This document shows positions 6,601 through 45,300 of a stretch of DNA of 64,000 bases, in pieces (the stretch's first letter is position 1; every line of letters begins with the position of its first letter). A model generated the notes under the pieces. The model made no database searches. It saw only the letters and a list, made by a program, of their open reading frames with translations, and was not told where the DNA came from. Made by a program: the position numbers and the translations under genes. The DNA lies in the NCBI RefSeq assembly GCF_019320115.1, contig NC_089591.1, positions 17,834,502 to 17,898,501 on the forward strand. The letters run 5' to 3'. The stretch comes from Miscanthus floridulus (taxonomy: Eukaryota; Streptophyta; Magnoliopsida; Poales; Poaceae).

Positions 6601-7191
6601 AGAAGTTGAAAATATCCAAAAATGAAAGTTGCTGAACTTTTCAAACTCTACAACTTTGCTTCAAGGAACATTTTCAAATTCTGCCTCCATTTTGAAATTT
6701 GAATTTGCGGTGCATTTGAGCATTTGAATCATTTCAAAATTACTCCAAATTTTATATGTAAACTTGAAAGACTTTGAATACCAAAGTTGATCCTTATAAA
6801 ATAATCTTCAACTTTGCTTTTTGCCTCAACCACAAATTCCAAATGGATTTTGAATTAGAAAAAAGGGGCAAAAAGGACTTTTATGATATGAATTTGAATT
6901 CAAATTTGATTTGTTTACCTTTTGCTTTAATTTTGATTTTTGACCAGTAACATGGCCCATTACGATTATTTGAGTCAAATGACACATGGCCTCACATGAT
7001 CATATGAAATTTGACCCTTGTGGTCATGATCTTTATTTAGGGTTTTGAATCACATCACATAAAAAAACAACATTATGAAATAAAGCTTATTTAGTGAATG
7101 CATTCAAAATTTTCTAATTTATGAATGCTTTGCAATGCATATGATGACATGTCAAATTTTAGTGCTAGGTCAAAACACCAAAGGTGTTACA
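3670..7191 (-). repeat. 5' LTR of element 1 (3.5 kb)
   Basis: In element orientation the LTR begins TGTAACACC at 7191 and ends GGTTCTGCCACA at 3670, so it has TG...CA ends. It is AT-rich except for a GC-rich island at about 5790-6500. Short ORFs there show no family resemblance and are treated as chance. A hairpin (AACACC-aaa-GGTGTT) sits at 7174-7188 at the LTR start. The flank 7192-7196 (agaaa) should be one copy of a 5-bp target duplication; the other is off the window. Confidence 0.88.
6374..6383 (-). promoter_or_regulatory. Probable TATA box of the element 1 LTR promoter
   Basis: The minus strand reads CTATAAATAG within GC-rich sequence, a near-ideal plant TATA box in the sense direction of the element. 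If used, transcription would start about 30 bp further left, giving a U5 of more than 2.5 kb. Inferred from motif and position only. Confidence 0.55.
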
Positions 7192-10100
7192 AGAAACTAT
7201 TTTAAGTACTTTGCATCATCTTTATTATGACCTATCCATCTAGGTAAGCACCTATACTATAGCAATCACTTGATTAACCAATTACATCCAGTTACCAACT
7301 TAGATTTAGCATATCCCATACCATCTAGATAACCATCAGTGTTCCATCATAATTACTATGATGCTATAGCTCGAGTCAAGTGCTCACTATCCAGGAGCGA
7401 TGGCTATTCGAATCGATTCCTAACCAGCTGGTGATTTATTCCTCACACAAACCACACTCACCGATCAAGTGAGCTACAAATCACTAATGACACTTTCCAA
7501 GTAGCCACAGGATAACAGTCATGGACCGCACTACCCAGGGACCGCCCGACAACTAGGACACACCTTGGGCTCACTCTTCGCGTCCCCGTCATACCCCCTT
7601 CAGCACCAGTCTGCCAATCTGAGTTTATCCTGGCTCAAATAGTGTCACTAGCTTCGCGGTCGAAAGGTACTTTATTCGGCCAGCTAAATGTGAGGCATAC
7701 GTTCAATATGACAAGAGGGACGAGCAACGATCGGTCCTTAATTGACATAGATGGAAAACTAACAGCACCCCAGAATCCTGTCTGGTTGCCTCCAACTTTT
7801 CCATCCGGTCTCCAATTATCCATCACACATGGTTAATTCCAGGATATCATTCTTTCCATAGCTACATTCTTCCAGTAACCTCCTATAAATGTAGGTGACC
7901 AGAAATCACCGATTGCTACCGGTCTAAGCAAGGCTAAGCAGTTATTCGATCCCAACCTAATAGGGTAAAAAGGTAATAAGGTAGGCAAGAATAGTAATAA
8001 ATGCATCAACGGTTTGAATCAACTCCTACAACTTAATGCAACAATATATAAACTCATATATAGAAAGAATTGCTTTTATAAAGTAGGAGACTTAGAATGC
8101 TCCGGGGCTTGCCTCGTTCGAATGAACTAGGTTGATGATCCATGCACTCGGGCAAGTCCTCTCCTTGCTCCTCTTCCTCTGGCACCTCCTATGCCTGGAT
8201 TTCTTGTGGATCTGTCCTGGTCTGCTCTTCCTGAACTGCTACTAGCAACTCCTCCTACGATCCTATATGATGCAGATGTATAAGTGCTCATGCATAGGTG
8301 CATCGGAGAGATAACATGTAATGATCATGATGCATGGAATGTAGATGAACATGTTTAACTTTATTGGACATAGTAGAAGTAAAGCTCTTCTATAAGGTAG
8401 CCAACATCATCCAAGAACATGTACTACTATACTACTACTACAACCACTATACTAACATGCCAAGTCACCACAGCAAGCTAAGATGCTTCAAAGATACACC
8501 AAAGCAAACATTATTAACTAAACATGCATTAAAAAGGTTAATTAAACCCTAATTAAAACTAGGTTTGAACAGCAACACCTATTTTGGTTGCACAAAAAAA
8601 TCTGAGCAAATTACAGTAGTATAGTACTACTCTAAGTAGACTACCATAAAATTTTCATGGCATTTAGATAAGTAAAATAGCCTACACAAAAATGACAAGC
8701 TATGACATAAATATGAGCATGAAAATAATTTGTATTATGAAAAGTATCCAACAATAGATTTAATATTTTTCCTATGTTCTACACAGTAAACAATCAATGC
8801 ACAAAATTATCATACACATGTTTTATACAATTTTTGCTCTCTATCAAAATAACAAAAATCATCAATTAAAGGCGCTTGAACTACACATCAATATTTCTCT
8901 GTAGAACATGCATGACATATATTTTTCCTACAAAGTACATCACTAAAGGAGATTAACAAAACTAGAACCATATTTTTCTGATAATTATTCTATTTACTAG
9001 ACATTTTCTAAGATAACAGTAAATACAAGAATTAAATAAAACTCTATACAAAAGTATCACAAAAACCACATGCAATATTTTTCTACTATAGATCTAAGAA
9101 TAAGAAGCATATAGAAATTTGTTTCATCAAATTTGGAGCAATATTTTTCAATTTATGAATTTCCAAACCATTTAAACAAAATCTGTAAATCGTTTCTTTT
9201 ATTCCTTCTGAAAATCCCGGTTCAAAAACGCTAGATCCACCCGGATCTGTACATGCGCGTACACACATAGGGGCTGACAAATGGGCCCGGGGGTCAGTGG
9301 GACCCCACCTGTCAGCGAGAGAGGAAGAAGGGTGGCCCTGACCACGGCTAACCTCGCCGCCAGCGAGGTCTCCGGTGAGGAGGTCTACTCTATCGCACTC
9401 TCCTTCACAAGGCGAACCTACTGGTGCTGCTATCGTGGCCAGTCGAGCTCGGGAGCAAGCTCATCAGCATCCATGGTGGCGTGGTGGCCTGGCTCAACGT
9501 CGGCCGGCCATCTCCGGCCAAGATGAGGCACGGGGAGGAGCTTGGGAGCTCCACCGCGTCAGGGCGGTGCTTGAGCGCGTGAAAATAGGGAGAGAGGTGG
9601 AGCGGAGAGGGGGAGTCCACGGAGCGGAGCTCTCCAGTGAGCTCGACCGCTACTCCGGTGAGGGAATCCTGAGAAAGGGAAGTTTCCCATGGCTTATCGA
9701 GGCGAGCACGGGGTGCGAGAGGTGAAGGCGGAGCTTTGGGCAAGACGGAGCGGTCGACGGCGAGCTAGGGTGGCCGGGTGAGCCAACTCCGACGAGGCAC
9801 ATGTGGTGGCGGAGCTGCCTACACGTGTAGGAGCTGTTGCTGCTGCTATCCAAGCGAGGATAAGGTGAAGGAAGGGAGGGAATGGCGGAGTGAGGGAGCG
9901 GGGGCACGCCCGGGCTAACAAAACGGTCAGGGCATGGCGACGTCGGCGGCGCATGGCGGCCACGCGGTGGCGGGACTCTGCCACGGGCACGCGGAGGTGC
10001 GGCGCTAGCGCTGGCGTGGGCGCGCGCGCACCGGTGGGAGCATGGGCGAGTGCGTGGGCAGGCCAGGCCGGCTTCGCTAGCTAGGCTAGAAGCGGAGCGG

Positions 10101-10602
10101 TGGCCCAACTAAGGTAAGAACTGTTTTTTTTTCATTTTCTTTTCTTTCCCAAATTCATTCAAATGAAATTTTAAACCTTTTCAATGCAGTTTCAAAAGTT
10201 GGACCCAAAATAGAAGTTGCTTAGAAAAATGTACACTACAACTTTGCCAAAAAGAGTAAGGCCAAAATTCAATTAGATTTTGAACTATAGATTTAAAGTT
10301 AATTTAAATAAAAAACCCTATTTTAGAATATTATTTTTAAAACCAAAATTTGAGAAAACTTTGAATATACACCTTGCTCCAAATTGCATCCTAATTACTT
10401 CCAAGTGGTCTAAGTGATCAACCAAGGTACACACATGGCAAAACAAACATAGCATCCAATCTATTAAAACAAAACTATGCAACATACATGTTTCATTAGT
10501 ATGTTTTAATTCTATATTTCATGTCATGCTTATGAATGCATAATAATGATTATGCTCATGATTTGCAAAATGTTAATGCATGCTTAACACCGAGGTGTTA
10601 CA
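7192..10602 (-). repeat. 3' LTR of element 2, inner part
   Basis: Matches 17869-21279 along its whole length. It starts abruptly at 7192, where element 1 was inserted, and ends at TGTTACA (10602), directly before the polypurine tract. Its GC-rich island (about 9270-10090) holds several overlapping ORFs on both strands with no coherent domain. Confidence 0.92.
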
Positions 10603-10603
10603 G

Positions 10604-10614: not shown

Positions 10615-13600
10615 ATAAGAATCTCGTCCTGAGATTTTGAGTTACGAACCATTTGTTATAAAAATCTTTATAAGCGTTTTGCAGATATTCTCCTGTTTCC
10701 CACATCGCATCACCATCATCGTGATGACTCCACTGTATCTTATATGTTCTCATCACTTTATTCCAAGTGACTTGGTCCTTAGTGTCCAAAACTCAAACCG
10801 GTTGCTCACGGTATTCCAAGTCTGATTTGATCCGAATTCCCTAAGGTTCTATTCTCTCTTCCGGAACACACAAGCACTTCTTCAACTGTGATACATGGAA
10901 GACTAGAAAGATTGAACCCATCGCTTCTGGTAACTGTAACTTATAAGCCATGGGACCCTTCTTCTCTATGATCTTGTACGGTCCTACAAACCTAGCAGCA
11001 AGTTTCTTCTTGATTCCAAACCATTTCTTCTTCATTGGGGGTAACTTTCAAATATACATAGTCACCAACTTGAAATTCTAGCGGTCTCCTTCTCTTATCT
11101 GCATAACTCTTCTAGCGTGACTGTGCCGCTTTCATGTTTTGTTGGATAATACAGACCTTTTTCTCAGCCTCGTCAACAAAATCGATTTCGTAAAACCTTC
11201 TCTCTCCAAGCTCAACCCAATTCAACGGTGTCCTACATTTCCTGCCATACAATACTTCAAATGGAGCCATCTTGATACTCTCTTGGTAACTATTGTTGTA
11301 AGCGAACTCTATCAAAGGTAACCATGATTCCCATGAACCCCTAGATGATAACACACAAGCTCTAAGCATATCTTCAAGAATAGCATTAACTCACTCTGTC
11401 TGCCCATCTGTCTATGGGTGGTAAGCTGTACTACGAACCAAGCTAGTACCCAAACCTTTCTGAAGATGCTCCCAAAAATGAGCGGTAAACTGTGACCCAT
11501 GGTCAGACACGATAGTCTTTGGTATACCATGTAATCAGACAATCTCTACAATGTACTTCTCAGCATACTGAGGGGGTCGAAAAGCGTTCTTGACTGGTAA
11601 AAAGTGAGCTGATTTGGTAAGGCGATCTACAATCAACCAAATTGAATCATTCCCCTTTGGTGTGGTGGGAAGACCGGTGATAAAATCCATACTTATATCA
11701 TCCCATTTCCAATCTGGTACTGACAAAGGTTGCAACATTCCTACGGGTCTCATGTGAAGAGCTTTCACTCTACAACACATGTCGCAACGAGCAACATACG
11801 CTGCAATCTCCTTCTTCATCTTCGTCCACCAATAACAACGTCTCAATTCTTGGTACATTTTGCTACTTCCAGGATGGATAGACAACTTAGAGTGATGAGC
11901 TTCATCCATCAATTTGTTCTTGAGCTCTCGATCTTTAGGTACAACCAGACGGTCCTTAAACCATAACACTCCTTGTTCATCCACTCTAAAGTGCTTGGTC
12001 GATTCTTTCTTCATTTTCTCCTTGATATGGAATATTCCCTTATCTGTTTTCTGACCCTTAATGATCTTGCTCTCCAAGGTACAACTAACCTAGATATTGT
12101 GCAACACAGCAGGATGCAACAAATTGAACCCATCTTCAAACAATGGTTGCATAGTAAGAGAATGTGACTTCCTACTTAAGGCATCTGCTACTACATTTGC
12201 CTTTCTCGAATGATAGTGCACATTCAGATTATAATCCTTTATCAGCTCTAACCATCTTCTCTATTGCATATTCAACTCAGATTGAGTAAATATGTACTTG
12301 AGACTCTTATGATCTATAAAGATATTGCACACATTCCCAAGCAAGTAGTGTATCCAAATCTTTAGAGCATGCACAATGGCCGCAAGCTCTAAATCATGTG
12401 TAGGATAGTTAACCTCATGCTTCCTCAACTGACTTGAGGCATAAGCAATGACCCTTCCATCTTGCATCAGAACACATCCTAAACCATTCTTTGATGCATC
12501 GCAAAACACATCAAACGGCTTCTCTATATCCGGTTGTGCCAGAATAGGAGCAGTGGTTAGCAAATTCCACAAGGTGCAGAAAGCTCCCTCACACTCCTTT
12601 TGTCCAAATGAACTTATGATCCTTCTATAGCAAACTTGTCATTGGCTTGGCAATCTTCAAGAAGTTCAGTATAAAACGACGATAGTAACTGGCTAATCCA
12701 AGAAAACTCCGAACCTCATGAACTGTGCTTGGTGCCTTCCAATCCATAACCTCTTGTACCTTACTAGGATCCACTGAGATTCCATTCTTAGATAACACAT
12801 GACCGAGAAAAGGAACTGTCTTCAGCCAGAACTCACATTTACTAAACTTAGCATACAACTGGTGATCTCTGAGTCTAGTCAAGACAATTCCTAGATGCTC
12901 TGCATGATCTTGTTTGTTCTCTAAGTATAATAGAATGTCATTAATGAACACAATCATGAACTTATCCAACTCCGTCATAAAGACCAAATTCATCAGATAC
13001 ATAAAGTATGCAGGAGCATTTGTCAAACCAAAGGACATGACAAGATACTCGTACAAACCATATCTGGTGGAGAACGCGGTCTTAGGTATATCTTGTGGTC
13101 TAATCTTGATCTAATGGTACCCTAATCTCAAATCTATCTTGGAGAACACCTTGGCTTTTGACAATTGATCAAACAAGATATCAATCCGAGGTAGAGGATA
13201 CTTGTTTTTAATTGTCACCGCATTTAGTGGCTGATAGTCCACGCACATTTGTAAGGAGTTATCCTTCTTCTTCACGAACAGTGCAGGACATCCCCATTCT
13301 GATGAACTTGGACAAATTAAACCCTTAGTCAATAGATCTTGGAGTTGTTTCTTCAACTCGGCTAATTCATTTGGAGGCATCCGATAAGGCCTCCTTGAGA
13401 TCGGTGGTGTTCTAGGGATTAACTCAATGGCAAACTCAACATCTCTGTCTAGTGGAAGACCGGGTAACTCATCTGGAAACACGTCCAGAAACTCGCACAC
13501 TACTAGAATCTTAGCTAGAAGAGTAGTTTGGACTGCACAAGTTGTACTGGCCAGATCTATTCTCCGAGGTAAGGTTACTTGAAATGTACCTTCTCCAATA

Positions 13601-15072
13601 GGTTCCTTGAGAGAAATGCTTCTTCCTCCAACATCAATTACTACTCCCATCTTATTCATCCAGTTCATTCCCATAATCACATCCAGAACTAGCCCTAGCA
13701 TAACTATCAAGTTAAGCTTATACTGTCTATCTGCTATACTCAGGGTTACCCCCTGGATTATCTGATTAGTTAACAGATCAGCCCCAGCTGAACTTATCTG
13801 ATAAGCACATTCCAATTCAACTATCTTTTGCTCATACTTTCTTGCAAATGCTTGACTTATGAATGAATGAGATGATCTAGAATCAAACAAAACGATAGCA
13901 GGATGATTGTTGATAGAAAACATACCGGCTATCATGGGCTCTCCTTCTGGGATGTCATCAATGGTGGTGTGGTGCACACGAGCTTGGTACTGATTCTGCT
14001 GCTTCTTGGGATATGGGCAAAACTTTGCAAAGTGTCTAGGTTGATTGCAGTTGAAACACGGTCCTCTTACTTGAGTAGCAGCTCTAGATGAACTACCTTG
14101 TCTGATCTTGGCTTGTGGCACCACCATCTTGAATGGCTTCTGATTCCTCTGAGGTTGCTGGGTATTCTGATTCCTCTGCTGGGGTGGCCTGAACCTTGCA
14201 CCAGGGGTAGGCGGACGATACGCAGAACGATTTGCCATCGGGGCCCTTGGCTGGGACAGACTTGACTCAAAAGCCCTCTTGTGAGTCTTGGATGCAGCAT
14301 ATACATTGTTGTTATTTTCTTGCTTTAAGCAGTCACTAACAAAGTCATTGAAACCAGTTCTCGTGTTGGTACCCACATGCTTCATCATCTTGGGATTCAG
14401 ACCTCTCTTGAAACTAGCGATCTTTTTGGCATCGATATTCACCATGTCAGAGGCATAGCGACTTAGATTGTTGAATGCATGTAGATACTGTGTCACTGTC
14501 TTGGTGCCTTGATTCAGTGCTAGAAATTCTCCAAACTTCATTTCTGTCAAACCAGGTGGAATGTAAACTCCACAAAAAGCCTCAGTGAATTCCCTCCAAG
14601 TAATGTGGGCATTGGGGGGAAAAGTGGTGCGGTGGTGCTTCCACCACATTCCTATAGGGCCTTGTAGCTGATGAGCTGCATACTTAGTCTTCAACACTTC
14701 TGTCATCCTTAGAACACAAAACTTATCTTCCATGGTGTTTATCCACTCTTCTGCATCTAATGGCTCTACCGCTTCTTTGAAAATTGGTGGTTTGGTGTCC
14801 ATAAAGTCCTTGAAACTTCTATACTGATTCGCTTCATGTCCACTTGGGTTAAACCTACGGTGGGTGTTGTCAGCAATGTGGCGCAATGCAGCTTCCATGT
14901 TCTGCTGCATGCCCTCCATGTTGCGTTGACTTCCAAGGAACTGTGCGAAGAACTATTCCGCGGTGTACGGTGGAGGAGGAGGTGGTGGTGGATCATGGTT
15001 CTCATTCCTAGCAGCACTGCCACCTGCCTCAGCAGCGTCATACACGGTACGGTGAGTGTTCGGCATCTGCAT
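10613..15072 (-). pseudogene. gag-pol polyprotein of element 2 with C-terminal chromodomain, broken
   Basis: Starts at an ATG at 15072 (second ATG at 15066). Order: gag with CCHC knuckle ([14 protein letters not shown], about 14020-14065), protease, reverse transcriptase (about 12620-13420), RNase H (DASKNG, about 12490), integrase with an HHCC zinc finger (about 11770-11900) and a D,D,E core with DHGSQF (about 11500), then a chromodomain ending at 10613. Damage includes about eleven in-frame stops (for example TAG 14953-14955, TAG 13111-13113, TAG near 12630, 12262 and 12090, TGA near 11535) and frameshifts near 12600 and 11045. The protease motif reads DSRSS instead of DSGAS. The RT motif reads FIND instead of FIDD, from a single G-to-A change at 12942. 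The copy cannot be active. Confidence 0.92.
10625..10815 (-). other. Chromodomain at the end of the element 2 integrase
   Basis: The last about 60 codons of pol contain LEYREQPVRVLD (R in the place of a TGA), then YKIQWSHHDD and MWETGEYLQ. This follows the Tekay-clade chromodomain pattern, with the conserved (K)VQWSHH and (T)WE motifs. In chromoviruses this domain is thought to direct integration by binding modified histone H3. The call rests on motif order. One stop (about 10792) and another upstream (about 10841) interrupt it. Confidence 0.85.
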
Positions 15073-15436: not shown

Positions 15437-16492
15437 CTACTCATCGTGGTCACTGTCTAAGTCGGAGATGTCGACATTGTCACCATCCACATCATCGTTG
15501 CCATCATTAGCTGGTGCCTCAGGCTCTTCAGGATCCTCATCCTCATCTAGATCCATCTCTACTGCTCCAGGAGGAACATAAGGGTGGAGCTAGTTATTCA
15601 GCTGATGAACCTCCTCATGTAGGTTGTCGTTGTACTCTTCTGCATTGGCCAGCTGCTGCTCCAGCTCAACCTATCGAGCTCTTAGAACATCTTCTACAGA
15701 CCAGGCTTCATTCCTCTGGTAGAGCACATGGATCAACATGCGCTCAGCATTCCTGTTGGCGGTGGTCAGACGCTCAACCTGCTCTCTCAGTGCACGTATG
15801 TCTCCCTCATAGACTCTAGTCCTCTAGGTCGCCTGATCCCTCTAACGAGTCAACTGAGCCATCTCTGCATTGAGCCTCTCAATCTCGGCGTCATGATCCC
15901 TCTGAAGCTGATGTCGGTCATTATGGGCCTGACCAAGAGCACCAGACACACATCTTAGGCTACCTTCTACTCCATCGAAAGCCTTCATCACTACGAACAT
16001 GGCGCTCATAGCAGGGTTATCTCTGTTCTGTCCTTCTGCTACACCAATCTCTAGAGATCTTCCTCTTGCTTACTGCCATGAGTCAGTGGAGGGGTTGCCC
16101 CTCGGAAAGACTCCAACTATAGCGGCTGCCAACTCCTAAGGAAAACGATCCATGATATCCCTCAGTATCCCAAAGGCTGCCCTGTCAGCTGCTTCTTCAG
16201 CGGTCCTGCTAGTTGACTCATAACGCCAACCAGTTCACTCAGAACTATCACCTCGAGGATGAACAACAGCCTCCACAATAACCAAGAGACCTTCCCCCAA
16301 CTGCTCATTTGTCTAGAAATAGCGGGGCTCCATTTCATTAGGATAGCCTACATAGCTGAGCACTCTCCACAAGAGTGTAGGCATCCTAAACTCTCTAAGA
16401 AACGTGTGGTGCTGATGGGTACGTGGAGCAAACTAATGGCAGGGAGCTCTGCCTCTAGTGGACTTGCGAGCGGTCTGCTTTGTGCGTGCCAT
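15437..16492 (-). pseudogene. Pre-gag ORF of element 2 starting with a histone H3 tail sequence
   Basis: A single frame of 352 codons from ATG 16492 to TAG 15437, with nine internal stops (seven TAG, one TGA, one TAA) but no frameshift found. The start reads M-ARTKQTARKST: residues 1-11 after Met equal mature histone H3, including K4, K9 and S10. The next residues, RGRAPCH-stop-FAPR, align loosely with H3 GKAPRKQLATK. The TAG after residue 19 sits where H3 has Q19. The middle (about 16430-15970) resembles no domain I know. From about 15890 to 15600 heptad-like Leu/Glu/Gln patterns suggest a coiled coil. The C-terminus (about 15570-15440) is Asp/Glu-rich. Only the N-terminus resembles H3; there is no histone fold. 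It is not part of gag. Function unknown. Confidence 0.85.
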
Positions 16493-17269
16493 CTATAGCA
16501 AATTTTTTTATTACCCAGTGAGAACAAGGTTAAGTTGTCATTTTTATCAAAATGAGATAATCAACTTATAAGGGGAGGAACAATGCCATGAATGATATGT
16601 ACAACATGATGCATGCACGTTCCGTACGTTGTCAAAAACTTAGGAAAAATAACAATTGCTAGCGGCATAGACGGTGGCATACAACGGTCTCTCATAAACG
16701 TAGCTAATACGTACTACACGATAGCGCTGTTATGTACCTGCAAAAGATCCACTTCAGCCCAAACCCTGACAGTATGAAAAATATGCACGAAAGCAGTAAA
16801 GTAATCTACTCGCTCTACACGCATCCCCAGATACACGTACAACGGTAGCAACTACCCGAACCATCGTCCTATCGACGACATCGTCACCACAGGACGAAAT
16901 TCCCCACACATTGGATACCTTCATACAAACACGAGTATGGCATGTAAATAATCTGGCATCATATAAGCACTTCCCTAGATCGGCAGTGTATCCGATCATG
17001 CTCTCACAACTCTCACTTACCGAGGCATAAAGGCAATGGATCCATACATTACCACTCAAGTGAATGGCACTCATACAATAGCACGCCATATGAGCAACGA
17101 AATAGAAATATGATGCAAAGACCCCCAAGTCAGTACTTAAATAAGCCACCTAGAGTCCTTAATTAGGCATACAGGATATGACCACTAGCACACTATTAAG
17201 TTTTAAAACTTAGTTTTAAACACAATTTTGGTTTTAAATACTCATGGGAACAGTAACCTGCTAAACCTT
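16493..17269 (-). other. 5' leader of element 2
   Basis: Sequence between primer-binding site and pre-gag ORF. A cysteine-rich ORF at 16754-17149 has no family resemblance and is probably chance. Nothing else seen. Confidence 0.55.
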
Positions 17270-17283: not shown

Positions 17284-20200
17284 TGTAACAGAGTCGACCA
17301 ATTATACGAGATTAAGTAAGGAAATCTTTTGCCGAAGTAGATAATTTAGCAAACTTAAGCCCATATAACCCGGTAGTCCATGAAACCACGAAGGATTTCA
17401 AACCAATCAACATACCAACCAAGATCGTACAAGTTTAGCAATCACTGTCATATGTTACATAAAGTTCATAATGACAGTTGGATACATCGGAGTTTAGAAC
17501 ATAAAGTTATTACAACCCAAGTTCAAACTGAAATAGCGGAAGCAAATAGTTTTAAAGCCACACACACACTTTTGGTTTAGATACAGTGCCACTAGGTAGT
17601 CATCTCCAACAAAAGCATCAGATGAGAGATACGGAGTGACCATTGCCCTTGGTCCTAGTTGTCGCCCATCGCCGGGTATAGGCAGTTAATGCAATAGCCA
17701 TAGTATATTTGACCATCTGCAACAACAATGGGAACAATGCCCTAAGTACGAGAAGGTACTCAGCTAGACTTACCCATCTTAAACCAAAATAAAGCGACAC
17801 CAAGGATTATGCAAGGCTTTCTTTAGTGGGCTAGCTGACTCATTTACGAAAAGCATAAGCTATCATGAAGAAACCATTTTAAGTACTTTGCATCATCTTT
17901 ATTATGACCTATCCATCTAGGTAAGCACCTATACTATAGTAATCACTTGATTAACCAATAACATCCAGTTACCAACTTAGATTTAGCATATCCTATACCA
18001 TCTAGATAACCATCAGTGTTCCATCATAATTACTATGATGCTGTAGCTCGAGTCAAGTGCTCACTATCCAGGAGCGATGGCGATTCGAATCGATTCCTAA
18101 CCAGCTGGTGATTTATTCCTCACACGAACCACACTCACCGATCAAGTGAGCTACATATCACTAATGACACTTTCCAAGTAGCCACGGGATAACAGTCATG
18201 GACTGCACTACCCAGGGACCGCCCGACAGCCAGGATGCACCTTGGGCTCACTCTTCGCATCCCCATCATACCCCCTTCAGCACCAGTCTGTCAATCCGAG
18301 TTTATCCTAGCTCAAATAGTGTCACTAGCTTCGCGGTCGAAAGGTACTTTATTCGGCCAGCTCAATGTGAGGCATACGTTCAATATGACAAGAGGGACGA
18401 GCAACGATCGGTCCTTAATTGACACAGACGGAAAACTAACAACACCCTAGGACCCTGTCTGGTTGCCTCCAACTTTTCCATCCGGTCTCCAATTATCCAT
18501 CACACATGGTTAATTCCAGGATATGATTCTTTCTATAGCTACATTCTTCCAGTAACCACCTATAAATGTAGGTGACCAGAAATCACCGATCGCTACCGGT
18601 CTAAGCAAGGCTAAGCAGTTATTCAATTCTGACCTAACAGGGTAAAAAGGTAATAAGGTAGGCAAGGATAGTAATAAATGCATCAACGGTTTCAATCAAC
18701 TCCTACAACTTAATGCAACAATATATAAACTCATATATAGAAAGAATTGCTTTTATAAAGTAGGAGACTTAGAATGCTCCGGGGCTTGCCTCGTTCAAAT
18801 GAACTAGGTTGATGATCTACACACTCGGGCAAGTCCTCTCCTTGCTCCTCTTCCTCTGGCACCTCCTGTGCCTAGATTTCTTGTGGATCTGTCCCGGTCT
18901 GCTCTTCTTGAACTGCTACTAGCAACTCCTTCTGCGATCCTATATGATGCAAATATATAAGTGCTCATGCATAGGTGCATCGGAGAGATGACATGTAATG
19001 ATCATGATGCATGGAATGTAGATGAACATGTTTAACTTTATTGGACATAGTAGAAGTAAAGCTCTTCTACAAGATAGCCAACATCATCCAAGAACATGTA
19101 CTACTATACTACTACTACAACCACTGTATTAACATGAAGTCACCACAGCAAGCTAAGATGCTTCAAAGATACACCAAAGCAAATATTATTAACTAAACAT
19201 GCATTAAAAAGGTTAATTAAACCCTAATTGAAACTAGGTTTGAACAGCAACACCTATTTTGGTTGCACAGAAAAAATCTGAGAAAATTACAGTAGCATAG
19301 TACTACTCTAAGTAGACTACCATAAAATTTTCATGGCATTTGGATAAGTAAAATAGCCTACACAAAAATGACAAGTTATGGCATAAATATGAGCATGAAA
19401 ATACTTTGTATTATGAAAAGTATCCAACAACAGATTTAATATTTTTCCTATGTTCTACACAGTAAACAATCACTGCACAAAAATTATCATACACATGTTT
19501 TATACAATTTTTGCTCTCTATCAAAGTAACAAAAATCATCAATTAAAGGCACTTGAACTACACATCAATATTTCTCTATAGAACATGCATGACATATATT
19601 TTTCCTACAAAGTACATCACTAAAGGAGATTAACAAAACTAGAACCATATTTTTCTGATAATTATTCTATTTACTAGACATTTTCTAAGATAACAGCAAA
19701 TACAAGAATTAAATAAAACCCTATACAAAAGTATCACAAAAACCACATGCAATATTTTTCTACTGTAGATCTAAGAATAAGAAGCATATAGAAATTTGTT
19801 TCATCAAATTTGGAGCAATATTTTTCAATTTATGAATTTCCAAAGCATTTAAACAAAATCTGTAAATCGTTTCTTTTATTCCTTCTAAAAATCCTAGTTC
19901 AAAAACACTAGATCCACCCAGATCTGTACACGCGCGTACACACACAGGGGCTGACAAACAGGCCCGGGGGTCAGCGGGACCCCACCTGTCAGCGGGAGAG
20001 GAAGAAGGGCGGCGCTGACCATGGCTAACCTCGCCGTCGGCGAGGTCTTCGGCGAGGTCTACTCTATCGCACTCTCATTCGCAAGGTGAACCTACTGGTG
20101 CAGCTATCGTGGCCAGTGGAGCTCGGGAGCAAGCTCACCGGCATCCATGGCGGCGCGGTGGCCCGGCTCAACGTCGGCCAGCCATCTCTGGCCGAGATGA

Positions 20201-21279
20201 GGCGCGGGGAGGGGCTTGGGAGCTCCACCACGTCAGGGCGGTGCTTGAGCGCGTGAAAATAGGGAGAGAGGTGGAGCGGAGAGGGGGAGTCCACGGAGCG
20301 GAGCTCTCTAGTGAGCTCGACCACAACTCCGGCGAGGGAATCCTGAGGAAGGGAAGCTTCACATGGCTTACCGAGGCGAGCACAGGGGTGCGAGAGGTGG
20401 AGGCGGAGCTTTGGGCAAGACAGAGCGGTCGACTGGCGAGCTGGGGTGGCCGGGTGAGCCAACTCCGGCGTGGCGCGTGTGGTGGCAGAGTTGCCTGCGC
20501 GTGCGGGAGCTGTTGCTGCTGCTGTCCGAGCGAGGACGAGGTGAAGGAAGGGAGGGAATGGCGGAGTGAGGGAGCGGGGACACACCCGGGCCGACAAAAC
20601 GGTCAGGGCATGGCGACGTCGGCGGTGCATGGCGGCCACACGGCGGCGGGACTCTGCCGCGGGCACGCGGAGGTGCGGCGCTGGCGCTGGCGTGGGCGCG
20701 CGCGCGCCGGTGGGAGCGTGGGTGAGTGCGCGGGCAGGCCAAGCCGGCTTCGCTAGCTAGGCTAGAAGCGGAGCGGCGGCCCAACTAAGGTAAGAACTGT
20801 TTTTTTTTTCATTTTCTTTTCTTTCCCAAATTCATTCAAATGAAATTTTAAACCTTTTCAATGCAGTTTCAAAAGTTGGACCCAAAATAGAAGTTGCTCA
20901 GAAAAATGTACACTATAACTTTGCCAAAAAGAGTAAGGCCAAAATTCAATTAGATTTTGAACTATAGATTTAAAATTAATTTAAATAAAAAACCCTATTT
21001 TAGAATATTATTTTTAAAAGCAAAATTTGAGAAAACTTTGAATATACACCTTGCTCCAAATTGCATCCTAATTACTTCTAAGTGGTCTAAGTGATCAACC
21101 AAGGTACACACATGGCAAAACAAACATAGCATCCAATCTATTAAAACAAAACTATGCAACATACATGTTTCATTAGTATGTTTCAATTCTATATTTCATG
21201 TCATGCTTATGAATGCATAATAATGATTATGCTCATAATTTGCAAAATGTTAATGCATGCTTAACACCGAGGTGTTACA
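17284..21279 (-). repeat. 5' LTR of element 2 (4.0 kb, complete)
   Basis: 3,996 bp. On the plus strand it runs from TGTAACAGAG to GGTGTTACA, so the ends are the inverted 7-mers TGTAACA/TGTTACA. It contains a GC-rich island (about 19960-20770) with overlapping Arg/Ala/Pro-rich ORFs on both strands that I judge non-coding. A hairpin TAACACC-ga-GGTGTTA lies at 21262-21277. Confidence 0.93.
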
Positions 21280-21649
21280 GGCTCCTAGTCTTTTTGAGCT
21301 CACTGTTTACCTTGACAATGATAATGTTGTGGCCTATGATGATGACTTTGATATCCTCAATTGGTGGCATGAGCATAAACTAACATATCCAGTTCTCTCT
21401 ACCTTGGCTAAAGATATTATGTCAGTTCCTGTCTCAACTACTTCTTTGGAGTCTTACTGGCAGGATCATTGAGGAGCGGTGACGTTGATTGGGCTCAGAG
21501 ACAGTGGAGATGTTGGTCTGCATCAAGGACTCCCGTTAGGCCAAGAAAGAGGACATCATACTGTGGAGGACAAGGAGTTAGAAGACTACTTCAAGAACCT
21601 ATGGCTTGATGAGGAAGCTGCTGCTGGTGCTGGTTCTAGTGTTGGTTGA
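21280..21649 (+). pseudogene. hAT transposase, C-terminal dimerisation region, broken
   Basis: The reading frame gives FDILNWWHEHKLTYPVLS and then AKDIMSVPVST, the conserved hAT C-terminal (Dimer_Tnp_hAT) signature. It hits a TGA at 21470-21472. Beyond it, homology switches frame (RIIEER, then SETVEMLVCIKD) and returns to the first frame for KELEDYFKNLWLDEE before a final TGA at 21647-21649. Frameshifts and stops therefore break it. Its N-terminal part must lie left of element 2, outside the window, so the retrotransposon split an existing hAT transposase gene. hAT transposases cut and paste DNA transposons and dimerise through this region. Confidence 0.85.
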
Positions 21650-25209: not shown

Positions 25210-27482
25210 TCATAGTTCATCTTGTGCTTGAGATTTCTTCACAGCAAGACCATTTTCGACCCATGCGGTGTAACTACCAATCCCTGTTTTCATAATCATT
25301 CACATGTTTCAGATAAAAAAAGGAGACATAAAAAATAATTGAGATGTTTTCTGGATTTTTAAGGCAACACTAAGGAAAGAGTAAAGCCCAATTTAGAAAA
25401 CACCTTCATACTCGAATACCGGACAACATACCCTCCCTCGACAAATTACCCCACCCCCTCCACAAAATAGTTCAAAGTGGTTTTGAGAAGGTGTTTAGAC
25501 AGAAGTTCTTTTGTTCAGCCCCTAAATTTCTCAGCCGTAGAGTTTCAGGACTTGCAATTTGCAACAAACTAAACAGCACCGCCATATAGTGTTCAGCAAA
25601 ATTTTGCTCTACCTGCCCTGATGTTTTATGCTTGAGGTCGATCTGCCTATGTGTGTTATAAACTTACAATTTTGAATTGTGTGAACATGGTTTCTCTAAT
25701 AATTTGGAACAAGAAAGCCATCCTCATTATTGAATATCAATGCAGCTAAGATTGTACCCCAAAGAAGATTATTTTACCAGTATTGGATAACCAAAATTAG
25801 TCATGCAAGAAACATAGGGTCATGGTAATTTTGTTTTCTATTAAGGCCTAAGATTCCATAAGATAAATCAGATTGAATGAACAATATGCAATCGTGTAGT
25901 CCTATACTGTACAACGTACAATTATCCAATGACAACTGAAGCCTCAAGGGGAAGCAAGGGAAAAGGTCTTACAGCTGCCATGAGATCAGCGCATGCTAGT
26001 TCAGACCTTACTCCGCTTTTGCAGCCCTTGAAAGAAAAACAGATGGATCAGCAGAAGAACAAGCAAGATAAAAAGATCATTGTGAGAATAAAAATAAACG
26101 CACACATGCCATGGTGTATAAATACAATTAATCTGATGAGCTGTGGGTAGAGATCATCAGTAATACCACAACGATGTTGTCCTCTTTGTCGAAATCTGCT
26201 GCGACCTGTGCAATGAACTGGGGGTTCTTCTCCCTTCCTGCTGAAACCATACAGGTCACATCCAGTAGAGTACAGTTCAAGCTAAAGATCTCACAGCTTA
26301 AAGGTTCAAACAGTTAGTATGTTCTTAGGGACAAGAAAGTCTTGTGATGTAAGATCTGTATTTTAATTTGTTTGTTTTCGAGACTTGCCTTGTGAAGTGA
26401 AGAAAAGATAGGGCACGTTAAAGGAATCCTCCACATGGCCATTCTTGAATTCCTCTTCCGTTCTGTTAATATAATTTGTGTAGATTAATCAAAATCAAAA
26501 GCATAATTATGCAAGAGATCCATGTGACATGCAAGAGCATAATTATGAAATCGGTTCTGGGCAAGTTTTTGTTTTTTATTCTTAATAAAAAAAAAGTTCA
26601 TTTTTCTTTTGGAAAGAAGTGAACACTTGTTTGTGACAAAAGGTTCACTGCAAGGACTGGTAACCAGTCTGCAGAAAAGAGTATGGTAGCTCTCTGACAG
26701 AAAATGGCTTTTCAGAACATTGTTTGAGAAAACTAAATCAATTTGGGAGATTGGTATTAATGGAAGCCAAATATTAGTCGACTGTAGGAAAAGCTAGTCG
26801 CTAGAGAGTGACAGGACTAACATGGTAATTAGACGAAGGTTAGAGAGGACAGGTGACATCCAAAGCAAACATAAATTCTGTTTCATTTGGTGCCTCATGG
26901 CTAATAGTAAGTTTATGTGAGGCACCTGATTCGGGAGTAGCACGACAAGAGGGCAGCTAGTTACTATACTAATGAGTGAATGCACAGAGAAAGCACACAA
27001 ACTAAGCTTGGGGCCTGTTTAGATGGCGAAAATTTTTGCAAAATGACACTGTAGCGCTTTTCGTTGTTATTTGGCAATTAGTGTCCAATCATAGTCTAAT
27101 TAGGCTTAAAAGATTCGTATCGTGAATTTCGTCTAAACTGTGTAATTAGTTTTATTTTTTATTTATATTTAATGCTTCATGCATGCGTCTAAAGATTCAA
27201 TGTGACAGAAAATCTTGAAAAATTTAGTATTTTGGAAGGGAACTAAACTGGACCTTGAGCAAGGAGAGAACAACAGTCACCTCACGGGACACGACACGAG
27301 TATAAAAAAAAAGGTCACCTGACGTCCAGGTAGCGGTGACCACCGGAGCGGATGAGATGACTGGCCGCCGCCACGCCCACGGCCACCACCAGCGCGGCCG
27401 ATGGCTCCTCCGAGCCGCGCGCCACCAGCAGCAGCGCGGACAAGGTGCAGATCGTAAGCAGGATGGCCGACCTCATGGTCAT
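25210..27482 (-). CDS. Rhodanese-like sulfurtransferase (STR17-like), spliced
   Basis: Spliced model read by eye. Exon 1 27319-27482 begins MTMRSAILLTICTLSALLLV, a likely signal peptide, and ends at HRYLDVR. Exon 2 26389-26462 (TEEEFKNGHVEDSFNVPY), exon 3 26167-26237 (REKNPQFIAQVAADF) and exon 4 25973-26026 (GCKSGVRSELACADLMAA) join in frame. The last exon, 25210-25283, encodes SYTAWVENGLAV and ends QDEL. C105 in the loop CKSGVR is the rhodanese catalytic cysteine, which carries the persulfide. CKSGVR and the hydrophobic N-terminus most resemble Arabidopsis STR17. Intron 2 has a GC-AG donor (AAG|GCAAGT). Exon 4 ends in phase 0, but the last exon needs one preceding base. About 25 nt (expected GFKNVKN-like) are missing, as an unseen microexon or a real lesion. 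Predicted length about 150 aa. Role: small single-domain thiosulfate/persulfide sulfurtransferase; secretion is inferred. Confidence 0.8.
27011..27254. mobile_element. MITE family B, copy 1
   Basis: 244 bp, GGGCCTGTTTAG at the left and CTAAACTGGACC at the right, flanked by TTG on both sides (27008-27010, 27255-27257). The core shared with the other copies includes CATAGTCTAATTAGGC and TTCATGCATGCGTCTAAAGA. The 3-bp target duplication suggests PIF/Harbinger (Tourist-like). Confidence 0.8.
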
Positions 27483-27506
27483 CCTGTTCGAGAAGAAGGG
27501 GGCTAA

Positions 27507-27990
27507 GACTGTCTCCAACAAAAAAAAAAAAAATAGCGCGTGTTTAGTTTTCATCCTAAATTTCAAAAAAGTGTTACAGTAGCCATCACATCGAATCTTG
27601 CGATACATGCATGGAGCATTAAATGTAGACGAAAAAAAAACTAATTGCACAGTTTGATTAGAAATTGCGAGACGGAACGTTTTGAGCCTAATTAGTCTAT
27701 GATTGAACATTATTTGCCAAATAAAAGCGAAAGTGCTACAGTAGACAAATTTTCAACTTTGAGCCAACTAAACACGCGCTTATATGGACATCAAACCTAA
27801 AATGGGTAGCAAGAGACCCAAAATCAATTTTCAACAGAGTTATTTTGGTTGGGTTGCCTGAGAGGCACAATTTAAATATGGGTATCCTCTCTCTTGAAAA
27901 CCCATTTGCAGAAAGGAATCTATTTTGGATTTTGTTGTTGGAGAAGATGCCAAATAGATATTGAATTTTTTGTCTGTAGCGGTAGCCAAA
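27507..27990. mobile_element. MITE family A copy, interrupted by a family B MITE
   Basis: Begins GACTGTCTCCAACA and continues after the interruption with AAAATGGGTAGCAAGAGACC, CTGAGAGGCACAA and TTGTTGTTGGAGAAGATG. This matches, in reverse orientation, the complete copy at 45013-45300. The family B MITE 27535-27780 sits inside it. The far end has diverged, so the right boundary is approximate. Confidence 0.75.
27535..27780. mobile_element. MITE family B, copy 2 (nested, 52 bp upstream of the STR17-like ATG)
   Basis: 246 bp with perfect inverted termini AGCGCGTGTTTAGTT/AACTAAACACGCGCT. The core (CATGCATGGAGCATTAAAT, GCCTAATTAGTCTATGATTG) belongs to the same family as 27011-27254 and 28700-28942. 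Its position puts it in the 5' UTR or core promoter of the sulfurtransferase gene. Confidence 0.82.
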
Positions 27991-28699
27991 GGACGAAGAG
28001 AGGCCTAAAGGGGAGGAGAGAAACAGGAGCGGTAACGGTAAGATGCGACGACGAGAGTTTGTCCAAGGTGCAGAGCAGAGGTCGGGTGTTGTACTGGCAT
28101 GAGCATGAGCATGACCATCCATCATCTAAAATAGCAAGTGCGACTGTATTGCCGGTAGAATTATGAACAAGCACACGGTCATGTTTGCTTCTGTGGGTGG
28201 GCGGAGTCCAATCCCGTCAGCTCCGCGGTTCCGTTTCAGCGCGCCAAGCCGCCGAGGGTCCACTTTTCCTGTGGGCTGGTTCTCATTCTGTATTAAACAA
28301 CCCAACAGCTGGAGGTTTCTGAAACCAAGCCCAGGCCAATCGAGACCTTTTGGGCTCCGAAATTTAGAATGCTAACAAACAGAACAAAATCGCCAACACA
28401 GATGAAGCAACTCGATTCCAGAATCAATAACGAGCCACTCTGTCCTCAAATACTACATTTTGGGCCTGTGGATAATTTATTTTCTTATACATGTGGCTGA
28501 TATGCGAGACAATATTAAAGAACATACTATCAGTGATCAGGTCTTGCATGATACGCTTCCCCCAAAGTAAGCTGGCATCCTAGTTGAACTGAATTTACCG
28601 AGGGCTCCAATCCATGGTACTTTAGCTCACTCACCAGAACCTGCCAGCCAGTCAAAGCGAGCCAAGAATCCGATTCGTTTTCGCGGTGGCTCCTGACTA
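27991..28699. other. Intergenic sequence upstream of the sulfurtransferase gene
   Basis: No gene recognised. Short ORFs on both strands lack conserved content. May contain distal promoter sequence of the minus-strand gene. Confidence 0.4.
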
Positions 28700-28942
28700 C
28701 GGCCCTGTTTACTTCCCTCCCAAAATGCCAAATTTTTCAAGATTCCTCGTCACATCGAATCTTTGGACGCATGCATGAAGTATTAAATATAAATAAAAAA
28801 TAAAACTAATTACACAGTTTAGACGAAATCCACGAGACGAATCTTTTAAGCCTAATTAGACTATGATTGAACACTAATTGCTAAATAACAACGAAAACAC
28901 TACAATAGCGTTTTGCCAAATTTTTTGGCAACCAAACTGGCC
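28700..28942. mobile_element. MITE family B, copy 3 (opposite orientation to copy 1)
   Basis: About 243 bp with GGCCCTGTTTAC at the left and AAACTGGCC at the right, flanked by CTA (28697-28699, 28943-28945). The core GGACGCATGCATGAAGTATT and AGCCTAATTAGACTATGATT is the reverse complement of copy 1. Confidence 0.78.
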
Positions 28943-30930
28943 CTACACAAACTTGGTGAGCATTCGCAATACCCACACATATGGTGCATTGGTGTGTGGG
29001 TAAATGAAATGCAAACCTGTACCGCAGCCCATCCTTCAAAGTATTAGCAAGTCCTTCACCTCAAGAAGAATAAACTGTAACTTAGTTAATACACTGGCTG
29101 GATTGACCCAGTTGAGCCAGACGGTGGGAGGTTGAAGGAGAAGCTAACTTGTGAGGTCCACACGTCAGCGAATGGAGGGGGAGAAGCAGCAAGGGTGTTT
29201 TGGTCGATCCGAAGATGGGTACACGTACAGTGCTTGACACCGGGCCTAGGCACCCAGGAGATGTAGAAAATGGCAAGGATCAGGTAGACGAAGAATTATA
29301 ATGGCAAGTTTCAGAATAAGTGAATTGTAATGCCAGATCTCACAACTTCGAAAATTGTAATGGTATGGATCCAAATAAGACCTGTGCTAGGTTGTTTTGC
29401 TATTGGCAGCTATTTGTCAATATAGAGGTAATTTTTTCAATTTCATACCTAAGGATACAAGAATATCAAGGATAACTCGTAGCTTTACCTATGCAGCATA
29501 AGCTTCCTTTGCTAGGGAACGAAGGAACCTCATAAGTGGTTTCTTTGCTTTAGAAAGCTTCACATTCTTCCCCATCTTTATTTTGTGTGCTTTCTTGGAC
29601 CATGTGAGCTCTCTTCACAAGCTTCCGCATTTCCTATTGACAAAATGTTAGAGCAACTGAAGAACCTCAAACATTGAGCCAAAACAAATGCAAGAGTATC
29701 CCATATGCCTCAATAGGTATTCATGAGAAAGTTTAGTTTTAGATTTGATGTAGACACCAGTCTTACATGTTGGATGCATTAAGCTTCAGCACTAGAAGTG
29801 TTCATCTTTGACATACTCAAAGCACAACCAATAAAAAGGCTCAAGAAGAAAAGAACACAAGTCTATGGTCCCACTTACCACATCACCAAGAAATATACAA
29901 CTAGCAGGGTTACACGTAGTTTAATTAAATACTACATTGCAATGCAAACAGTATTATTACTGGATTCATGCAAAACAATGTTAAAGATCACAATGCTACT
30001 AACCATGCTTCCCATATATATGGGATCATAGTAACCATGTTGCATAATCTGAAGGGATCAAGGGGGTGAGCGAAAGGTTTATTGTTGCTTCGATTTAAGT
30101 TCTGAGATGTTACATTAGAAATAGCAACGTGTTCTTAAACATCCTGAAAACATAACAATCATCTACAATATATAGTTTGAAATAACAACATTCATGTTTC
30201 AGTAATTTAGTTTCTTACAATTAGGGCACTTAACCTGAACTAGGATATACACTTATTCCTTAACTGTTTCTAAGATATAACATCGATTTTGCTCAGTGAC
30301 TGTTACAGTCACAATTCATAGTTACACTTGCTACATTGAATCATGCATGACTCTATTACAAATGATAATGATTTTTTTGTAAGTTTCAAATTTGAAGCGA
30401 AAAGAAGACACGAAGAGGAAGGAGAAATGGACAACTCAAGATACTTCAGAATAGAAGGAAGTTTTTTTTCGCTAGAAACTTAGAGCATCTCCAAGAGAGA
30501 AAACACTGTCAAAATATCTCAACCATCAATCTTTGGCACTTGAGAAAACTGATCCACTTGTGCAGAAATATAGACGCGCGTATGAGCGTATCAATCAACC
30601 AATTTAGAAGTGGATGGGTGCGAGGGAAGAATACAAAGTAAGGATATGATTCCAATGCAAATGTACAAGATAGAAAAATATAAAAAATAGTTGGAGTAAT
30701 TTAAAAATAATTTAGGTTTGTGATATAATTAGTGAGAATTTGAAATATTTTTTGGCCATGTGAAAAATTATTAATTTATCAATTGTTTTTTATTAAAACT
30801 CTCGAAGATGCTCTTAGCAGGCGCCTGCTCTTAGGTCTAGCAATGATGTCAAATACCGAAGATATCCATCCAACCAAATTCATTCCGCTGTTCGAGAAGC
30901 AAAGAGAGGAGCCGAGAATCTGTGCTTCTC
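28943..30930. other. Intergenic region before the RMR gene
   Basis: AT-rich, no gene established. On the minus strand around 29495-29625 one frame reads KMGKNVKLSKAKKPLMRF then LAKEAYAA, which looks protein-like and could be an exon relic, but I cannot assign a family. The last 200 bp presumably hold the RMR promoter; no clear TATA box was identified. Confidence 0.4.
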
Positions 30931-45012: not shown

Positions 45013-45300
45013 GCTATCTCCGACAACAACGTCCAAAATACAAAACATATTTGTTATTTGGGTAGCGCTAAAGGCAAAATATTCAATACCTATTCGACAT
45101 CTTCTCCAACAACAAGACCCAAAAGAGAATTCTTTCTGTAAATGGGTTTCCAGGAGAGAGGATGTCTATATTTGAGTTGTGCCTCTCAAGCAACCCAAAA
45201 TAGGTCTCCCGTATAGGTACTCTGTTGGAGGCTGATTTTAGGTCTCTTCCCACCCATTTTGGGTTTGGGTGCCCATATGAGTTCATTGTTGGAGACAGTC
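45013..45300. mobile_element. MITE family A, complete copy
   Basis: 288 bp with inverted termini GGCTATCTCCGACAACA and GACTGTCTCCAACAATG (read inward from the right). Its reverse complement aligns with the copy at 27507-27990. No clear target duplication was found. Confidence 0.8.

Follow-up and report, generated by a model that had tools for sequence, protein, structure and literature searches.

A histone H3-like tail, putatively captured as an exon, opens the ORF0 protein of a Tekay/Retrosat2-type retrotransposon family in Miscanthus floridulus

The 64,000-nucleotide stretch of the Miscanthus floridulus genome analyzed here (contig NC_089591.1, positions 17,834,502 to 17,898,501; hereafter the window) carries on its minus strand a decayed Tekay/Retrosat2-type retrotransposon with an additional open reading frame (ORF) upstream of gag, known as ORF0 or 5'aORF, which starts with a peptide resembling the N-terminal tail of histone H3. 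We propose, with a probability of about one half, that ORF0 of this family starts with a captured exon of an H3 (H3.3-type) gene, kept by selection as a decoy or docking peptide imitating the H3 tail. Comparison of sequences from four subfamilies supports the view that the H3-like tail is a conserved and selected feature of the family, the evidence being its recurrence, the constraint on it between lineages, and its exon-like size.

The translation of the window ORF starts with MARTKQTARKST: the ATG at position 16492 of the minus strand is followed by ARTKQTARKST, identical to residues 1-11 of H3 exactly as the preliminary description had read it, and then by RGRAPCH*FAPR (the asterisk being a stop). 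That description also considered the similarity to continue loosely to about residue 23; the extent proved right, the looseness did not, as better preserved copies match H3 closely up to residue 23, e.g., ARTKQTARKSTTGRAPRHQLA in the database protein P0077. Of the nine premature stops of the window ORF seven are TAG, and tail Arg is often His or Cys in copies of the same subfamily, the pattern expected of methylated-C decay. The long terminal repeats (LTRs) of the element are about 3.4 kb long and 95.26% identical, the extra sense ORF lies between the 5' LTR and gag, and Ty3-type gag, protease, reverse transcriptase (RT), RNase H and integrase were all recognized by Pfam in pieces of the window. 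The piece after the integrase, a broken query, matched Pfam Chromo below the cut-off (E 0.026; 14.9 bits against 25.1).

Accessory ORFs of this kind were reportedly catalogued by Steinbauerova et al. in 2011. Gao et al. (2012; PMC3485330) described Retrosat2-type elements as having LTRs that exceed 3 kb and an additional ORF0 that precedes ORF1, and proposed hydrolase-like functions for ORF0; ORF0/5'aORF is known from Retrosat2, RIRE3, RIRE8, FRetro3 and grass Tekay elements (PMC3485330, PMC11728184). Since the window element combines LTRs above the 3 kb mark with an extra ORF upstream of ORF1, it is assigned to the Retrosat2 type; judged by anatomy and Pfam matches, it is a Tekay/Retrosat2-type element, and its ORF, equated by position and description, is a dead copy of the known accessory gene ORF0/5'aORF. 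With the published ORFs it shares the sense orientation between the 5' LTR and gag, the long LTRs and a divergence of ORF0 far above that of gag-pol; the published ORFs are moreover predicted to be nuclear, with a DRBM-like structure for the maize and sorghum members (PMC11728184). What sets them apart, in a comparison made by description rather than by sequence, is that histones are not mentioned for them: the word histone is absent from four papers dealing with such ORFs or with gene capture (PMC3485330, PMC11728184, PMC7264820 and PMC13317346), it occurs once in PMC6317226, concerning chromodomains, and PMC12786077 mentions aORFs twice without mimicry. The preliminary description knew of no earlier report; ORF0 and its DRBM-like fold turned out to be published, while for a histone-tail start on a retrotransposon protein no description was found in the open PMC literature, searched by title and the beginning of the abstract.

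Copies of ORF0 were taken from the 2.68 Gb assembly of the same genome, and 88 of them were read: 30 of subfamily A, to which the window copy belongs, 30 of B, 8 of D and 20 of C. For A, B and D the numbers of candidates scored were 40 of 2648, 150 of 11885 and 150 of 12288, respectively; the C copies were hand-picked among the matches listed, 18 via matches to the body of the protein and 2 via tail matches. The protein queries included the tail, except for those 18 of the 20 C loci. In subfamily A, 27/30 copies are unshifted through residue 23, and 14/30 match residues 1-11 of H3 exactly; the other three (L011, L022, L026) have a frameshift inside the tail or close to it and do not enter the residue tallies, which thus cover 85 copies. 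A recognizable H3-like start was present in all 58 copies of B, C and D (30, 20 and 8, respectively), with 6-10 of 11 positions matched (8-9 in B, 6-9 in C, 8-10 in D). The preliminary description had left room for a match confined to one copy or for a frame unconserved among copies. The start is instead carried by four subfamilies, and 119 of the 150 scored B matches (manual count) have no internal stop. Of the 68 copies with sufficient flank, 67 have gag behind ORF0 in the same orientation (29/30 A, 30/30 B, 8/8 D; the 20 C loci had too little flank to be counted); it mostly lies about 1.57 kb past the ORF0 ATG in A, as against about 1.08 kb for B and D. The gag of 27 of 28 other A copies is 85-91% identical to that of the window (75% in the remaining one); in B and D the identity is 42-54%.

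The database proteins give the same picture. The broken window ORF, with X at the stops, retrieved 32 homologs, 14 of which (P0019-P0032) show MARTKRTARKSAGGRAPRH or its variants within the first 14 residues. With a tail-free query (P0032, residues 40-238) four non-self matches were obtained; all three reaching the N terminus carry a version of the motif, and the fourth is a fragment. A tail-less profile search gave 260 matches (120 of them listed), and 24 of 143 proteins compared match at least 5 positions of H3 1-11 within their first 40 residues. The remaining 119 include many fragments and many proteins whose annotated start is an internal Met (MPTLLW opens 24 of the 143), and proteins devoid of the N terminus count neither for nor against the tail; P0077, P0080, P0101 and P0125 have a single open frame from the tail through MPTLLW. 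In P0018, an annotated M. floridulus protein, the C terminus of ORF0 is fused to a C-terminal piece of integrase (PF24626), the gene model being an annotation artefact or a chimera. In viral contigs the tail pattern gave no match, and none of 215 pattern matches of the long-form profile was confirmed. Bacterial genome contigs gave nine matches, of which seven were read as H3 and two as chance; the seven, from genome bins (L001-L005, L008, L009), read as eukaryotic-type H3, apparently interrupted by an intron in L002, and are probably contamination of the bins.

Between subfamilies the tail is constrained at the protein level. At 19.2 synonymous sites the A and B tails show 13.4 changes on average, and at 48.9 nonsynonymous sites 6.3, i.e., proportions of 0.70 (pS) and 0.13 (pN) in 27 x 30 copies, which corresponds to a rough ratio of nonsynonymous to synonymous divergence (dN/dS) of about 0.07; the ratio is 0.06 for A versus D, and 0.09 for A versus C over residues 1-12. 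In 30 x 30 copies, the three shifted ones included, a Fisher test on the mean A-B counts gave p 1.7e-5, and the A-B pN was 0.135 in the tail versus 0.162 in the best-conserved helix block of 66 codons. Within B, the tail variants common to at least 3 copies comprise 3 synonymous and no nonsynonymous ones. Conservation at the DNA level alone is an unlikely explanation, as most synonymous sites differ between the tails of A and B, although A, B and D have the same commonest reading, GCTCGCAAGTCC. The constant core of the tail comprises K9, the residues around it and, in almost all cases, K4; T3 and K9 are each present in 24/24 tail-bearing database proteins. The neutral T3, T6, A7 and S10 are retained in A, B and D, and the counterparts of K14, K18 and K23 in these subfamilies are mostly Arg, His and Arg; because K4 and K9 stay Lys while those three do not, charge alone fails to explain the pattern. 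Many losses of tail Arg lead to His, Cys or Gln, which fits decay of methylated CpG.

The size of the H3-like stretch points to its origin. In 14 proteins, five of which (GPKGVP-type) were compared after removal of one inserted residue, 12-18 of 23 positions are identical to H3 up to residue 23, and only 0-3 of 21 beyond it. Eight of ten host H3 genes appearing to have a separate first exon were fetched along with three intronless ones: in 8/8 of the former the first coding exon consists of Met and residues 1-23, with AAG|GT after K23, and in 3/3 of the latter the H3 sequence continues past this residue. We take the eight intron-bearing genes to be of the H3.3 type on account of their introns. 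Since the match stops at residue 23, where the exon of the host genes ends, the simplest explanation of the tail is that the first coding exon of a host H3 gene was captured, the splice acceptor perhaps included. The DNA of the A tail shares 51-56 of 69 positions with the eight intron-bearing genes and 50-53 of 69 with the three intronless ones, ranges that overlap and favour neither donor type. Directly 5' of the ORF0 ATG, CTAYAG (A, B, D) or CTAYAGT (C) was found in 84/88 copies, the window copy having TTTGCTATAG there. Of the eight intron-bearing H3 genes, two (L100 and L101) carry TTAATTAATGCAG immediately 5' of their ATG and two carry GGACTAG, the other four being devoid of such a T-rich context. 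The CTAYAG(T) context suggests that ORF0 may be expressed from a spliced leader.

Behind the tail no histone fold is evident, in agreement with the preliminary description: no Pfam histone family was matched at E<=1 by six related proteins and four more. The tail is disordered in the P0077 model, a long helix is predicted in the P0011 model (residues 124-266), and relatives have 14-24 Asp/Glu among their last 50 residues, so the predicted coiled coil and the acidic end stood as described. Between tail and coiled coil, the long form has a domain predicted to adopt the a-b-b-b-a fold of double-stranded RNA-binding domains (dsRBDs), as judged from models and structural comparison, other folds being possible; this domain was overlooked in the preliminary description, as were the exon coincidence and the splice-acceptor-like context. 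The short form in B is devoid of the dsRBD-fold domain and yet keeps the tail; all forms share the tail and, later, the long helix with the acidic end. In dsRBDs an RNA-contacting Lys motif precedes the last helix. By eye this motif is not evident in the ORF0 proteins, which have TAEEAADRAAF, TPFHGASRAAF or the like in its place; a single Lys is left in some A relatives (TAKEAAERAAF).

The course of events that we favour would begin with the capture by the element of the first coding exon (Met and residues 1-23) of a host H3 gene. Selection on mobile lineages would then have retained a free N-terminal H3-like tail with K9 and nearly always K4, joined in the long form to the dsRBD-fold domain and in all forms to the long helix and the acidic end. 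After removal of Met, an oligomer of the protein might present several H3-like tails in the nucleus, and these might compete for, or recruit, writers and readers of the H3 N terminus, enzymes and readers of K9 in the first place, so that the element would be shielded from silencing or docked on chromatin. Host chromatin readers or writers are thus possible partners of the tail, the chief alternative being the chromodomain of the element itself. In a wider form, which we put forward more tentatively and with rather less than even confidence, a retrotransposon lineage in grasses would have captured an H3 exon, perhaps with the splice acceptor, and would show it on an oligomeric accessory protein as a free multivalent tail that subverts the H3K9/H3K4 machinery or partners a type II chromodomain devoid of the aromatic cage.

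Several observations weigh against the proposal that the tail serves as an H3 decoy or docking peptide. The preliminary description regarded the product of the intact ancestor as a possible H3-tail mimic; conservation and selection of the tail agree with this, and strict mimicry is weakened by lineage C, in which part of the match is lost, with Pro at position 7 in 20/20 copies and Ala at position 3 in 10/20. Both P7 and A3 are expected to harm known H3 readers. At position 5, B, C and D do not have Q: B has Arg or Leu, C has Met, Val or Lys, and B and D together have Arg, Leu or His; position 11 is Ala in 30/30 B copies. Of the 24 tail-bearing database proteins, 3 are without K4, 2 without S10, 2 without A7, 1 without A1 and 7 without R2. 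The B-D comparison gives a weak dN/dS of 0.43, and 0.77 over residues 1-11, because of positions 5 and 11; the ratios are rough, as synonymous differences among A, B and C come close to saturation. Within A, the tail variants common to at least 3 copies include 8 nonsynonymous ones and 2 stops against 2 synonymous ones and so show no sign of constraint, as expected of dead copies, and stop counts in A are skewed upwards because its 30 copies are those nearest to the decayed window copy. The retention of Lys at position 4 (85/85 unshifted copies) and position 9 (84/85; Ser 10 likewise 84/85) is weak evidence within a subfamily, as C-to-T decay spares AAG codons; since Lys retention among dead copies says little, it is the between-lineage comparison that carries weight. 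Finally, an in-frame ATG lies 36 bases upstream in 25/30 B, 5/8 D, 2/30 A and 0/20 C copies, and the tail would be masked unless this ATG were spliced out or skipped; its absence in other copies and a one-base shift in L052-L054 and L057 argue that it is non-coding.

Among other explanations, chance, convergence, or an H3 fragment inserted into one dead copy is hardly credible: nothing was found in its support, the recurrence of the start across copies rules out a chance match, and a one-copy accident was rejected because four synonymously diverged subfamilies share the start, B being mostly open, with a match that ends at a host exon boundary. The tail could also be a mere basic leader derived from H3, serving nuclear import or nucleic-acid binding and unread by H3 enzymes and readers. 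The tail is indeed basic, lineage C tolerates changes at positions 3, 5 and 7, H3 tails act as import signals (see also PMC5677370), and grass 5'aORFs are predicted to be nuclear (PMC11728184). A leader of this kind has, however, no generic need of the neutral residues kept in A, B and D, or of a T3 invariant in the database proteins, nor does it account for K4 and K9 remaining Lys where the later lysines turned into Arg or His; we hold it to be unlikely.

A somewhat more doubtful reading makes ORF0 an adaptor for the element, the type II chromodomain of the integrase binding the ORF0 tail, whether plain or modified, and thereby delivering integrase, RNA or capsid either to chromatin or to a scaffold formed by ORF0. 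Type II chromodomains are stated to be without the aromatic cage residues and to have unknown partners (PMC6317226), the position of ORF0 just upstream of gag in nearly all flanked copies suits this arrangement, and so would the possible chromodomain remnant after the integrase of the window element, a match below the cut-off. The pairing is nevertheless not obligatory, since sunflower Tekay groups 1 and 3 possess a type II chromodomain without a 5'aORF (Kazancev et al., PMC11728184). Still less probable, in our opinion, is an acidic histone chaperone or a suppressor of RNA silencing in which the H3-like start has a subordinate role and may, for instance, fold back onto the acidic end. The long helix with its acidic end and the dsRBD fold of the long form are compatible with such a function, and DRBM likeness with a role in silencing was suggested for the maize and sorghum members (PMC11728184); it is at odds with the short form of B, which keeps the tail without the dsRBD-fold domain, with the RNA-contacting Lys of dsRBDs not being evident, and with no chaperone family among the Pfam matches of six related proteins.

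Mimics of the NS1 and G9a type are motifs of a few residues located at the C terminus or internally. ORF0 shares with NS1 of influenza A H3N2 (ARSK) a short H3-tail-like stretch; in contrast to these mimics, the likeness in ORF0 starts at the initiator Met, runs for 23 positions in register and apparently represents a whole captured exon. A short H3-tail-like stretch on a non-histone protein is likewise known from the automethylation sites of G9a (PMC9768651). The AlkB N6-methyladenosine demethylase of orchid Ty3 elements is comparable as an extra ORF, likely of host origin, fixed in a Ty3 lineage, for which a host-element conflict was proposed; it differs in being an enzyme domain whose activity was tested in vitro (PMC9289625), whereas the ORF0 tail is an unstructured peptide. 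The VANC anti-silencing proteins of VANDAL transposons are accessory products that counter silencing (PMC11728184), likened to ORF0 by description; unlike ORF0, they act in a sequence-specific manner on DNA transposons (PMC11728184).

Features of the ORF0-bearing element in the window, with positions counted from the first letter of the window
Feature	Positions	Strand	Basis or remark
ORF0 (5'aORF), long form, dead copy	15437..16492	-	9 premature stops: 7 TAG, 1 TGA, 1 TAA
ARTKQTARKST, exactly H3 residues 1-11	16457..16489	-	sequence
Counterpart of H3 residues 12-23, end of H3-like stretch	16421..16456	-	one premature stop inside
TTTGCTATAG, splice-acceptor-like string adjoining ATG	16493..16502	-	putative function
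dsRBD-fold domain (MPTLLWR...RDIMDRF)	16130..16384	-	boundaries taken over from the P0011 and P0077 models
Long helix, likely coiled coil	15587..16015	-	transferred from P0011 model (residues 124-266); oligomerization presumed
Acidic C-terminal region	15440..15586	-	sequence; ends DSDHDE
gag, protease, start of RT	13111..14919	-	Pfam
RT and RNase H pieces	12261..13110	-	Pfam
Integrase pieces	10841..12089	-	Pfam
Possible chromodomain remnant	10616..10792	-	Pfam Chromo, below cut-off
5' LTR	17868..21280	-	self-comparison, ends unrefined
3' LTR	7191..10603	-	self-comparison; 95.3% identity to 5' LTR

Elsewhere in the window, positions 1-990 are 71.5% identical to 12522-13512, which places a second pol-like fragment at the window start. 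Direct repeats of about 298 bases at 32017-32314 and 36934-37230, 97% identical and about 4.9 kb apart, flank long ORFs and resemble a further young LTR element. Repeats in both inverted and direct orientation, 160-240 bases long with 78-91% identity and located at 27011-28943 and 45057-45281 (one copy near 45.1 kb), are perhaps elements similar to miniature inverted-repeat transposable elements.

If the proposed capture and retention of the H3 exon are true, a transposon family has copied exactly what the silencing system that marks it acts upon. The H3-like tail gives a testable role to ORF0/5'aORF, for which no function has been established (PMC3485330, PMC11728184), and is itself a candidate for the partner of type II chromodomains. 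The subfamilies would also constitute a natural panel of H3-tail variants, with differences at positions 3, 5, 7 and 11 but a constant K9 and a mostly constant K4, suitable for probing the contacts of plant H3 readers. Taken together, the sequences suggest that these elements may imitate the chromatin tail by which plants mark and silence them.
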